NCBI RefSeq assembly: GCF_947496515.1
Contig: NZ_CANMDB010000001.1
Location: 558,001 to 622,000 of the forward strand
From: an uncultured Roseobacter sp.
Lineage (GTDB): Bacteria > Pseudomonadota > Alphaproteobacteria > Rhodobacterales > Rhodobacteraceae
Direction: 5' to 3'
DNA length: 64,000 nucleotides
Shown here piece after piece: positions 40,064 to 62,144 of this stretch (position 1 is its first letter; each line of letters begins with the position of its first letter). A program made the translations under genes and the position numbers. The notes beneath the pieces were generated by a model. The model was not told the origin of the DNA. It ran no database searches and was given only the letters and a program-made list of their open reading frames with translations.

Positions 40064-40690
40064 CTAGTCTTCGCTGCTCTCCTTGCCGCGACTTTCAACA
40101 ATCTCGTCGATCAGGCCCCATTTCTTGGCCTCTTCGGGAGACATGAAGTTGTCCCGCTCCAGCGCATCCTCGACTTTTTTCAGGGTCTGGCCGGTGTGCT
40201 TCACGTAGATTTCATTCAGCCGCGTCTTCAGCTTTTGCGTCTCCTGCGCGTGGATCATGATATCCGTCGCCTGCCCCTGGTAGCCGCCCGAGGGCTGGTG
40301 CACCATCACGCGGGAGTTGGGCAGCGAGAACCGCATGCCGGGCTCGCCCGCGGTCAAAAGCAGCGATCCCATGGAAGCCGCCTGCCCGATCACCAGGGTC
40401 GAGACCTTGGGCTTGATGTACTGCATGGTGTCGTAGATCGAGAGGCCAGAGGTGACCACACCACCGGGGCTGTTGATGTACATGGAGATTTCCTTGGACG
40501 GGTTCTCCGCCTCCAGATGCAGCAGCTGCGCCACGATCAGCTGGGACATGCCGTCATGCACGGGGCCCGACAGAAAGATGATCCGCTCCTTCAGCAGGCG
40601 CGAAAAGATGTCATAGGCACGCTCGCCCCGGCTGGTCTGTTCCACGACCATGGGGACAAGGTTCATGTAGGTGTCGATTGGATCGTTCAT
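40064..40690 (-). CDS. clpP: ATP-dependent Clp protease proteolytic subunit
   Basis: 208 residues, normal length. Serine protease with catalytic Ser106 ([11 protein letters not shown]), His131 (VMVHQPSGG) and Asp180 (ALERDNFM). It forms the tetradecameric barrel with ClpX. The N-terminal stretch [31 protein letters not shown] is typical. First gene of clpP-clpX; 162 bases separate its start from the divergent photolyase-like gene. Confidence 0.97.
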
Positions 40691-40852
40691 GTGGGGATGC
40701 CTGTCATTTGGTAATCGCCCGGACCATACCGCGCGAAGCGTTACTCAACTATTAGTATCGGTGCGGGGGGGCTGCAAGGGGCCGCGGGCCTCGACACGGC
40801 AGCAGCGCGCGGTGGCATTGATCCCGCAGAGCGGCCCGCTAGATCGCTTGCG

Positions 40853-42055
40853 ATGACAGCGCTTGATCATTTCCCGCCGACCCGAACCGCCGCCCTCGAA
40901 AGGCTCGCACGATTCGTCCCCCACGCCGGGCGCGACTACGCAGCGCGGCGCAACTATGACCTCGGCCCCGGGCGTCACACGGGCGTCTCGCAGCTGTCAC
41001 CGTACCTGCGCTGCCGTCTGATCACCGAACGCGACGTGCTGGAGGCCGTGCTGGTGCGTCACAGCCCGCAAGCGGCGGAGAAGTTCATTCAGGAGGTTTT
41101 CTGGCGGACCTATTGGGTGGGCTGGCTGATGCAGCGTCCCGGTGTCTGGGACCAGTACCGCGCGGATCTCAACCGGCAGTGGGATGCGGTACAGACCCAG
41201 TCGGGCCTGCGCGCGCGGTGGGAGGAGGCCTGCAGCGGCCAGACCGGCATCGACTGTTTCGATACTTGGGCGCAGGAACTGGCGGAGACGGGCTATCTGC
41301 ACAACCACGCGCGCATGTGGTTTGCCTCCATCTGGATTTTCACGCTGGAGCTGCCGTGGGAGCTGGGCGCGGATTTCTTCCTGCGGCATCTGCTGGACGG
41401 CGACCCTGCATCCAACACGCTGGGATGGCGGTGGGTTGCGGGCATCCAGACCCCGGGCAAGACCTATCTGGCGCGCACCAGCAACATCTCCAAATTCACC
41501 GAAGGCCGGTTTCACCCCAAATACCAGCTGGCCGGTGAGGCCCCGGCGCTGAGCGCGCCTCCCGCGCCCGACGCCCGGCCGCTGCCGCCCCGGGGTCATG
41601 CGGCCAGCAGCCTGCGCAGCGGGCTCCTGCTGCATGACGCAGACCTCAGCCCGGGTTTCGTGCTGGAGCGGGTGACACCGCTGACCCATGCGGTCCTGAC
41701 GCCCGAGGCCCCTTCCCCCCTGATGCCCGCGCCGCATGTGACCGCGTTCCGGGACGCCGCGACCGGGGACACGCAGACCCGCTGGGCAGAGCGGCTGGGC
41801 ACCGCAGGCGGTCAGATGCGCACGGCTGGCGAGATCATCGATTGGGCCCGGCAACACGACCTGCAGCAAATCGTCACGGCAGCCGCCCCCACCGGTCCCG
41901 TTGCCACGGTTCTGGCCGCTCTGCGCGCCACGCCCGATGCGCCAAAGCTCGTGGAGATCCGGCGCGATTACGACGATGCGGCCTGGCCTCTGGCCACCAA
42001 AGGCTTCTTTCCGTTCAAAAAACACATCCCCAGCCTGCTCAAAACCATCCGTTGA
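40853..42055 (+). CDS. photolyase/cryptochrome-like FAD protein with reversed domain order
   Basis: 400 residues. Residues about 40-225 are the helical FAD-binding domain of photolyases: GVSQLSPYLRCRLI (44-57), EKFIQEVFWRTYWVGWLMQRPGVW (76-99), GYLHNHARMWFASIW (147-161), DGDPASNTLGWRWVAGIQT (182-200), TSNISKF (209-215). A Pro-rich linker (231-248) leads to residues 255-400, which look like the alpha/beta antenna domain: GLLLHDADLSP, AGEIIDWARQHDLQQIVTAAAPTGPVA, and a final GFFPFKKHIPSLL resembling the end of that domain in ordinary photolyases. The normal order is antenna first. Activity (repair or signalling) is unknown. Confidence 0.85.
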   Translation: MTALDHFPPTRTAALERLARFVPHAGRDYAARRNYDLGPGRHTGVSQLSPYLRCRLITERDVLEAVLVRHSPQAAEKFIQEVFWRTYWVGWLMQRPGVWDQYRADLNRQWDAVQTQSGLRARWEEACSGQTGIDCFDTWAQELAETGYLHNHARMWFASIWIFTLELPWELGADFFLRHLLDGDPASNTLGWRWVAGIQTPGKTYLARTSNISKFTEGRFHPKYQLAGEAPALSAPPAPDARPLPPRGHAASSLRSGLLLHDADLSPGFVLERVTPLTHAVLTPEAPSPLMPAPHVTAFRDAATGDTQTRWAERLGTAGGQMRTAGEIIDWARQHDLQQIVTAAAPTGPVATVLAALRATPDAPKLVEIRRDYDDAAWPLATKGFFPFKKHIPSLLKTIR

Positions 42056-42114
42056 TTTCTACTCTGGGGTGCGGTTAGGCTCTCCGTTGGGGGGCCCATA
42101 AAAAAGCCGTGATC

Positions 42115-42131
42115 CGTCACATGGGCGTTAC
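42115..42131 (+). promoter_or_regulatory. possible PHO-box-like direct repeat upstream of phoX
   Basis: CGTCAC (42115-42120) and CGTTAC (42126-42131) recur at an 11-base period, the spacing of PhoB half-sites (CTGTCAT-N4-CTGTCAT). They lie about 80 bases before the PhoX start. The match to consensus is partial, so this is a suggestion based on spacing and gene context. Confidence 0.3.
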
Positions 42132-42212
42132 ACGCGCCATGCAGATGGTCCTCAGTGATGCTGCATCCGGGGGGTGCGGCGCGTCCAACAGAGCCACCGA
42201 CAGAGGAAGCTT

Positions 42213-44249
42213 ATGAACCGCAAAGACATCATCAACGATCCCGACCATGGCAACAAGGCAGAGGCCTTCGAGGCCTTTGACGACATCCCGACGAACCCGA
42301 ACCTCAACCGCACCATCGGCGATGTGATCAACCGCCGCTACGGTCGCCGCGACATGCTCAAAGGGGTGCTCGGCGTTGCCGCAACGACAGCGCTTTTCGG
42401 CACCTCCGCCATGGTCGCGCCCAAGCGCGCCGCTGCCAGTGCCGACGCGAGCCGCTACAAATTCGACGAACTGACCTGGGGCAACGACACCGAGCATCAC
42501 ATCGCGGATGGCTACAACGCCGACGTGCTGCTGCGCTGGGGCGATCCCATCACCGCCGACGCACCCGAATTCGACGTGATGAACCAGACGGCGGAAGCGC
42601 AGCTCAAGCAGTTCGGCTACAACAACGACTACGTGGGCTTCACCGCTCTGAATGACGAAGGCACCCGCGGGCTGCTCTGCGTGAACCACGAATACACCAA
42701 CGAGGAAGTGATGTTCCCCGGCCTGGGCCGTCAGGACCGCGCGGGTTTCGAGGGCATGACCGAAGAGTTGGTGAACATCGAGATGGCCGCCCACGGCGGA
42801 TCGGTCGTGGAGATTGCGCAAGGCGAGGACGGCAAGTGGTCGCTGGTCCGCGACAGCCAGTACAACCGCCGCATCACGCCGCTCAACACCGAGATGACAA
42901 TCGACGGCCCCGCCGCCGGTCACGCGCGGATGCAGACCAACGCCGACCCCGAAGGCATGACCGTCATCGGCACCGTGAACAACTGCGCCGGCGGCATGAC
43001 GCCCTGGGGCACCTACCTGATGGCCGAGGAGAACTTCCACGGCTATTTCTGGACCGACAAGGTGGACGCCGAGGGCAAGCCCGACGTGACCGGCATGGAA
43101 GAGGCCATGGCCAAGCGCAACGGGCGCTACGGCGTGCCCGGCATGTGGTACGCCTGGGGCAAGTACCACGACCGCTGGAACATCGACAAAGAGCCGAACG
43201 AGCCCAATCGCTGGGGCTGGATCGTCGAAGTGGATCCGCGCAACCCCGATGCCGCACCGATCAAGCACACCGCTCTGGGCCGGTTCCGCCACGAAGGCGC
43301 TGAGACGACCGTGTCCAAGGACGGCCATCTCGTGGTCTATTCGGGCGACGACAACCGGTTCGACTACCAGTACAAATACGTCTCCGGCGGCACGATCAAC
43401 GACGACACGGCCGTCTTCGGCTCCTCGCTCTTCTCGGATGGCACGCTCTATGTGGCGCGGTTTGACGAGGACGGCACCGTCGAATGGATGCCACTCGTGC
43501 ACGGTGAAGGACCGCTCACAGCTGAGAACGGGTTCAACGATCAGGGCGATGTGATGATCGACACGCGCATGGCCGCGGATCTGCTGGGCGCCACGCCCAT
43601 GGACCGTCCAGAGGACGCGCAACCCGGGCCCAACGGCACCGCCTATCTGATGCTGACCAACAACACCCGCCGTCAGCCCGATCAGGTGAATGCCGCCAAC
43701 CCGCGGCCTGAATCGTCCTTTGGTCACATCATCGAGATCAAGGAAGACGGCGAGGATCATGCCGCCACCAAAGGCACCTGGTCGATCCTGGTCAAATGCG
43801 GCGATCCGACGATCGAGGAAGTGGGCGCCCAGTGGAACCCCGAAACCTCCGAGAGCGGCTGGTTCGGCTCACCCGACAACTGCGCCATCGACGCGGACGG
43901 GCGGCTGTGGATCTCCACCGACCAGGGCTCGAGCTGGGGCAAGACCGGCAAATCCGACGGGCTCTACGGCCTGGAAACCGCGGGCGATCTGCGCGGTCAT
44001 TCCAAGCTCTTCTTCCGCTGCCCGGTGGGGGGCGAGCTCTGCGGGCCGTACTTCCACGACAGCGGCGAGACGCTGTTTCTCGCGGTGCAGCACCCGGGCA
44101 CGGACGGTACCAAGGATTTCAGGGGCTTCGAGCGCGACTCGACCTTTGAGGATCCGGCGACCCGCTGGCCCGATTTCGACCCGGCCATGCCACCACGCCC
44201 CTCGGTCGTCGTGGTGACGAAAGAGGGTGGCGGCAAGATCGCCATCTGA
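42213..44249 (+). CDS. phoX: PhoX-family alkaline phosphatase
   Basis: 678 residues. Twin-arginine motif at 44-50 (GRRDMLKG) and a hydrophobic stretch to about residue 70 direct Tat export. The remainder matches PhoX/DUF839: NHEYTNEEVMFPG, NNCAGGMTPWGTYLMAEENFHGYFW, DDNRFDYQYKYVSGG, CGPYFHDSGETLFLAVQHPG. PhoX enzymes need Ca and Fe and release phosphate from organic monoesters; they are common in marine bacteria. ATG 42213 follows AGAGGAAG; the upstream in-frame start is rejected. Probably phosphate-starvation induced; ends before two hairpins. Confidence 0.94.
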   Translation: MNRKDIINDPDHGNKAEAFEAFDDIPTNPNLNRTIGDVINRRYGRRDMLKGVLGVAATTALFGTSAMVAPKRAAASADASRYKFDELTWGNDTEHHIADGYNADVLLRWGDPITADAPEFDVMNQTAEAQLKQFGYNNDYVGFTALNDEGTRGLLCVNHEYTNEEVMFPGLGRQDRAGFEGMTEELVNIEMAAHGGSVVEIAQGEDGKWSLVRDSQYNRRITPLNTEMTIDGPAAGHARMQTNADPEGMTVIGTVNNCAGGMTPWGTYLMAEENFHGYFWTDKVDAEGKPDVTGMEEAMAKRNGRYGVPGMWYAWGKYHDRWNIDKEPNEPNRWGWIVEVDPRNPDAAPIKHTALGRFRHEGAETTVSKDGHLVVYSGDDNRFDYQYKYVSGGTINDDTAVFGSSLFSDGTLYVARFDEDGTVEWMPLVHGEGPLTAENGFNDQGDVMIDTRMAADLLGATPMDRPEDAQPGPNGTAYLMLTNNTRRQPDQVNAANPRPESSFGHIIEIKEDGEDHAATKGTWSILVKCGDPTIEEVGAQWNPETSESGWFGSPDNCAIDADGRLWISTDQGSSWGKTGKSDGLYGLETAGDLRGHSKLFFRCPVGGELCGPYFHDSGETLFLAVQHPGTDGTKDFRGFERDSTFEDPATRWPDFDPAMPPRPSVVVVTKEGGGKIAI

Positions 44250-61586: not shown

Positions 61587-62144
61587 ATGGCCACACAATT
61601 CGACCACATCAGCGATGTTCTGACCAAGTTCATCCACGCGCAGCACATCTTTTTCGTGGGCACGGCGGCGCCCGAGGGGCGGGTCAATGTCTCCCCCAAG
61701 GGGATGGACAGCTTGCGGGTGCTCGGGCCCAACCGCATCGTCTGGCGCAACCTCACAGGCTCCGGCAATGAAACGGCGGGACATCTCGCAGCACTCAACC
61801 GCATGACGCTGATGTGGTGCGGGTTCGAGGCAAAACCGATGATCCTGCGCACCTACGGCACGGCCAGAACGCTGCACCCCCGCGATGGCGATTTCGCGGC
61901 GCTGAACGCGCTCTTCCCCGCCTCTCCCGGGGCGCGTCAGATCTACGATGTGGCGGTGGAAATGGTGCAGACCAGCTGCGGCTATGCGGTGCCCTTCATG
62001 GAGTATGCGGGCAAGCGCGACGTGCTGGAAACCTGGGCGGAGAACAAAGGGGCCGAGGGCGTTGCCGACTACTGGAAGACCCGCAACCAGCAGACAATCG
62101 ACGGCGCGCCCACCCATATCCTCGGCACGTCCGAGGACGCCTGA
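61587..62144 (+). CDS. pyridoxamine 5'-phosphate oxidase family (FMN-binding split barrel) protein
   Basis: 185 residues. The split-barrel flavin domain is visible as HIFFVGTAAPEGRVNVSPKGMDSLRVL and NRIVWRNLTGSGNETAGHL, with a C-terminal RFVQTSCGYAVP-like tail (VQTSCGYAVPFMEYAGKRD). It is not PdxH itself; the NVSPKG motif belongs to the PNPOx-like group with varied or unknown reactions. It starts 3 bases after glmS, so it joins that operon. Ends shortly before a convergent lipoprotein gene. Confidence 0.88.
   Translation: MATQFDHISDVLTKFIHAQHIFFVGTAAPEGRVNVSPKGMDSLRVLGPNRIVWRNLTGSGNETAGHLAALNRMTLMWCGFEAKPMILRTYGTARTLHPRDGDFAALNALFPASPGARQIYDVAVEMVQTSCGYAVPFMEYAGKRDVLETWAENKGAEGVADYWKTRNQQTIDGAPTHILGTSEDA

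Follow-up and report, generated by a model that had tools for sequence, protein, structure and literature searches.

A Rhodobacterales photolyase with inverted domain order: almost certainly a member of the published NewPHL class

We consider one gene in a stretch of DNA of 64,000 nucleotides (the window), whose product carries the motifs of a photolyase FAD domain in its N-terminal half and what looks like the photolyase antenna domain at its C-terminal end. Is this order a circular permutation or a swap, as the original prediction proposed, does it mark a separate clade, and is it new? We hold it almost certain that the gene encodes a photolyase of the NewPHL class, the class being matched through its published description. 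The novelty has to be given up, since the inverted order is a hallmark of NewPHL in excerpts of PMC9426592 and PMC13274461; the inverted photolyase is an already published class (2020), and the window gene looks like a regular member of it. The features of the locus are as follows.

40064..40690, minus strand: clpP, divergent neighbour (open reading frame; 162 bases to the photolyase gene)
40853..42055, plus strand: NewPHL-type inverted photolyase gene, 400 amino acids (intact open reading frame of 400 codons with an ATG start; conserved orthologues; AF2 model of the full protein from a 73-row alignment, pLDDT 96.5, pTM 0.93)
40853..41527, plus strand: N-terminal FAD/catalytic domain, residues 1-225 (PF03441, phmmer, Foldseek, and the invariant W169, W192 and N188)
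41528..41599, plus strand: linker, about residues 226-249 (residues 216-255 of the model contain neither helix nor strand)
41600..42052, plus strand: C-terminal alpha/beta 'Z' domain, about residues 250-400 (AF2, Foldseek, and hhalign with controls)
Residues 256-261, 278-282, 317-322, 339-343 and 365-369: strands of the Z-domain (AF2 model)

In the N-terminal part, the Pfam model FAD_binding_7 (PF03441) matches residues 78-216 with E 6.5e-23, and since the match covers profile positions 1 to 136 of 203, it stops short of the final third of the usual model for this domain. The phmmer search matches residues 8-198 to 1tez/1owl (E about 2.5e-20), and Foldseek with the full model finds solved photolyases and cryptochromes over 215-257 columns (best E 7.6e-8 among the 50 matches listed), which are taken to be mainly matches of the FAD domain. 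A sequence search of the PDB finds no solved NewPHL structure, its best match (76 bits) being a class I photolyase. The motifs SPYLR, NHARMWFAS and DGDPASNTLGWRW lie at residues 49-53, 151-159 and 182-194, GFFPFKKHIP lies at residues 384-393, and the active-site W-x-W motif is kept in the FAD domain. Conservation is stronger in the FAD part: over 72 relatives the median identity to the window protein is 66% there (residues 1-225), against 37% in the C-terminal part (residues 250-400).

The flavin site and the electron path can be followed by mapping residues onto the numbering of 1owl, with conservation counted over 73 aligned proteins (alignment A2, window protein included). W390 and W367 map to W192 and W169, both invariant (73/73), as is W194. 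W314 maps to V113 (V, L or I in 56 of the 73 rows), an assignment taken from one pairwise alignment with W110 and W123 nearby; W123, a tryptophan in 42/73, aligns with a different tryptophan of 1owl. By alignment, two of the three classical electron-transfer tryptophans are kept, as the dyad of W192 and W169. The flavin-site asparagine N386, which we take to be the equivalent of N395 of CraCRY, maps to N188 and is invariant in 73/73. Excerpts of the literature describe 'a mere Trp dyad' for the D. shibae NewPHL (PMC8948257) and conservation of the asparagine (N395 of CraCRY) in NewPHL (PMC12083526). Nine of the 13 FAD-site residues listed in PMC9426592 are identical in the window protein and four differ (T240 to V, W280 to F, position 346 to Y, A385 to S). 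As for Fe-S cysteines, the CxxC motif is absent from the window protein and present in one of the 73 aligned proteins (L137).

What, then, is the C-terminal part? The original prediction was to fail if residues 255-400 lacked a Rossmann-like alpha/beta fold; it passes because these residues fold as such a domain in the AF2 model. Modelled alone, residues 238-400 give five strands with intervening helices (pLDDT 94.3, pTM 0.88). The strand and helix order of ordinary photolyase antenna domains serves as the standard of comparison. Because the order inside the C-terminal domain is ordinary by this standard and the profile matches are collinear, the inverted layout is a swap of whole domains. Of the "circular permutation or swap" only the swap is retained; a permutation inside the alpha/beta domain is ruled out by the ordinary strand-helix order in the AF2 models.

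The fold has more than one family to offer, since universal stress proteins (Usp) and the photolyase antenna families both belong to the HUP fold group. The C-terminal domain might be a separately recruited Usp-type domain of the same broad superfamily and not a relocated antenna, a reading that we consider unlikely. It is favoured by the Foldseek E-values of the C-terminal part, in which Usp rank first (best 2pfs, 3.4e-4) ahead of the best photolyase-family chain (cryptochrome 2vtb_D, 6.6e-3) and the photolyase 1iqr (1.3e-2, rmsd 3.1, 126 columns). It also agrees with the silence of PF00875 (DNA_photolyase, the N-terminal antenna), for which none of the 73 A2 members, window protein included, gives a match at E 0.1; Pfam and NCBIfam searches of residues 234-400 (the C-terminal 167) give no match above the curated cut-offs. 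When the Z-domain family is compared directly with 41 canonical N-terminal antenna domains by hhalign, the match is collinear and weak (Prob 20%, E 0.0011), and its score of 27.5 is higher than all 200 column shuffles (best 21.95) but lower than two of the 100 block shuffles (29.9 and 28.6). The TM-scores by query length, however, speak against a Usp recruitment: the best are those of photolyase chains (0.55 for 1iqr and 4dja, against 0.47 or less for Usp, among the 50 matches listed). Judged from the fold, the Foldseek matches of the C-terminal part to photolyase chains probably fall in their antenna domain.

The Z-domain is tied to the antenna domain because inverted photolyases of Deinococcus bridge the profile gap. 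A profile of four of these proteins (three fused, and the separate alpha/beta gene of strain QL22) aligns in hhalign with the canonical antenna domains (Prob 95.9, E 6.1e-9, 135 columns) and with the Z-domain of the window family (Prob 58.7, E 9.4e-5, first strand included), the E-values being those of single comparisons. The second alignment scores 32.2, higher than every shuffled control (200 column and 100 block shuffles, best 24.1) and higher than a Usp profile (26/30 loci), which reaches 24.7 over 21 columns. Together with the Pfam match and the AF2 and Foldseek results, the bridge bears out the claim of an FAD domain first and an antenna-type alpha/beta domain last. That the C-terminal domain is homologous, remotely, to the photolyase antenna domain is thus likely, though not proven. 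A further reading is doubtful in our judgement: the Z-domain would truly be the relocated antenna, the inverted order would have arisen once by way of separate neighbouring FAD and antenna genes that were later fused in opposite order, and chromophore binding may persist. Its separate-gene stage is read from the arrangement that Deinococcus sp. QL22 and phr4/phr5 still show.

Several of these relatives deserve description in their own right. On the plasmid NZ_CP097153.1 of Deinococcus sp. QL22 (L217:696-1987), the FAD domain and a photolyase-domain-like alpha/beta domain are encoded by two separate genes with a 4-base overlap, a split inverted photolyase that resembles Synechococcus phr4/phr5 as described in an excerpt of PMC9426592. 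The alpha/beta gene matches PF00875 with E 2e-4, and the C-terminal parts of two of the three fused Deinococcus proteins do so with E 7e-4 and 1e-3, all below the gathering score. The fused proteins, on the plasmids L180, L182 and L216, are inverted photolyases of 456-472 amino acids with a CxxC...C cluster, which from its sequence is taken as Fe-S type. The Persicobacter plasmids L181 and L184 hold frames of 391 and 433 amino acids whose FAD domain, at the N-terminus, groups close to the inverted proteins of the Fe-S type. In genome G023 (contig C6, about 251878-253694) a PF00875 match in a 527-codon frame adjoins an inverted photolyase gene on the opposite strand. For L186 (genome G225), a motif search downstream of the FAD-domain frame finds no separate alpha/beta gene.

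From the published class, a mode of action can be proposed for the window protein. Blue light would excite reduced FAD, and the excited flavin would pass an electron to a cyclobutane pyrimidine dimer (CPD) in single-stranded DNA, splitting the dimer; photoreduction of the flavin would run via the W192-W169 dyad. The C-terminal domain, in the role reported for it, would take the place of the absent end of the FAD domain and cover the flavin site. That the protein is a blue-light receptor with cryptochrome-like signalling and not a repair enzyme is very improbable: the host genome has, besides the window gene, one photolyase of canonical domain order and one PF04244-type photolyase/cryptochrome gene, so that repair could be redundant, but W192, W194 and N188 are invariant in the aligned proteins, and the published class members are CPD photolyases on single-stranded DNA in excerpts of PMC9426592 and PMC13274461.

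We turn to the distribution of the gene. Orthologues are found in 17 of the 19 genomes of the genus (one is split in two pieces at contig ends), and the remaining two have a weaker match only, in another photolyase frame of about 480 codons. A search of the order with the C-terminal domain alone finds matches in 90 of 196 genomes, spread over 43 of 87 genera. In the named genome collection at least 588 of 595 candidate stretches are confirmed, and the best 80 of these loci, a set skewed to near relatives, were used as the relatives. Going by title, roughly 50 of the 80 are Rhodobacterales; among the others are Acidiphilium, Elioraea, sphingomonads, Hyphomicrobiales, gamma- and betaproteobacteria, and Actinomycetota (Curtobacterium, Frigoribacterium, Cryobacterium and Rathayibacter). 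The separate clade that had been predicted is recovered in a tree of FAD domains (43 rows, 7 of the 15 intended canonical rows, unrooted), where a branch supported at 100/99 sets the window group apart from the other rows. The window group, the Fe-S-type inverted proteins and the Persicobacter proteins together are split from the canonical rows with support 100/100. The position of the window group beside the Fe-S-type inverted proteins resembles the relation of Phr7 to Phr4/Phr6 in an excerpt of PMC9426592. The cyanobacterial bin L135 falls among the sphingomonads in the same tree, and its cyanobacterial assignment may be a binning error.

The clpP gene next door can be examined in the same best 80 loci, where tblastn finds matches for clpP in 47 and for clpX in 45. 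In 37 of the 80, clpP diverges from the photolyase gene at a distance of no more than 250 bases; in 9 it is divergent at 533-3476 bases upstream, and in 1 it is placed otherwise. The 33 loci with no clpP match include the Actinomycetota and sphingomonads and some Rhodobacterales (the two Ruegeria loci, L128 and L136), and some loci are short. Because the divergent arrangement is common to many relatives, the clpP neighbour looks like gene order inherited by descent within one lineage. Nothing points to a functional pairing of the two genes: the divergent arrangement recurs across the relatives, and none of the 7 Actinomycetota and 4 sphingomonad loci (groups by title) shows it. No sigma-70-like promoter or terminator is found at 40600-42250, and the GTTC-N7-GTTC box, which we take to be the LexA motif, occurs in the window as a single copy at 61617, far from the photolyase gene.

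The NewPHL class bears on how the two-domain photolyases and cryptochromes were assembled, and the window gene adds one well-conserved member to it. With the confident models and the Deinococcus bridge it becomes easier to assign the Z-domain, which the Pfam search misses, to the antenna-domain family. Dinoroseobacter shibae, the source of one tested NewPHL, belongs to the Rhodobacterales. In the 2020 work of Emmerich et al. the C-terminal domain reportedly seals the flavin site, and NewPHLs are said to substitute for DASH photolyases. In the order, not one of 196 genomes has a match that reaches the curated cut-off for DASH, which is consistent with such a replacement and gives it weak support, because about half of these genomes show no NewPHL match.

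How does the window protein compare with the known systems? Excerpts of PMC9426592, PMC13274461 and PMC8948257, which cite Emmerich et al. 2020, describe NewPHL (Phr7; also SPL) as having an N-terminal FAD domain and a C-terminal 'Z-domain', and NewPHLs or SPLs are given an inverted domain topology in PMC13274461. Some authors root the photolyase/cryptochrome family at these short proteins (excerpt of PMC9649867). The window protein shares with NewPHL the FAD-first order (by Pfam, AF2 and Foldseek), the C-terminal Z-domain, the tryptophan dyad (alignment-based, with V113 at the third position), the conserved flavin-site asparagine and the absence of Fe-S cysteines; no difference is found in this comparison, which is made with the published description of the class, its tested members being those of D. 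shibae and M. mesophilicum. With the class I CPD photolyases (1owl, 1dnp) it shares FAD-domain homology, the tryptophan pair and the active-site W-x-W motif, whereas theirs are an N-terminal antenna (PF00875, the model that matches none of the A2 members), a full FAD domain and a tryptophan triad. The SPL of Xu et al. 2021 and Phr4+Phr5/Phr6 have an inverted layout like that of the window protein, and the Deinococcus kin form the neighbouring branch of the FAD-domain tree. According to an excerpt of PMC9426592, Phr4 and Phr6 of picocyanobacteria carry four Fe-S cysteines, Phr4+Phr5/Phr6 have the inverted layout, and Phr7 of Prochlorococcus is a NewPHL without the Fe-S cysteines. The window protein, which like Phr7 lacks these cysteines, is therefore not an SPL of the Fe-S type.
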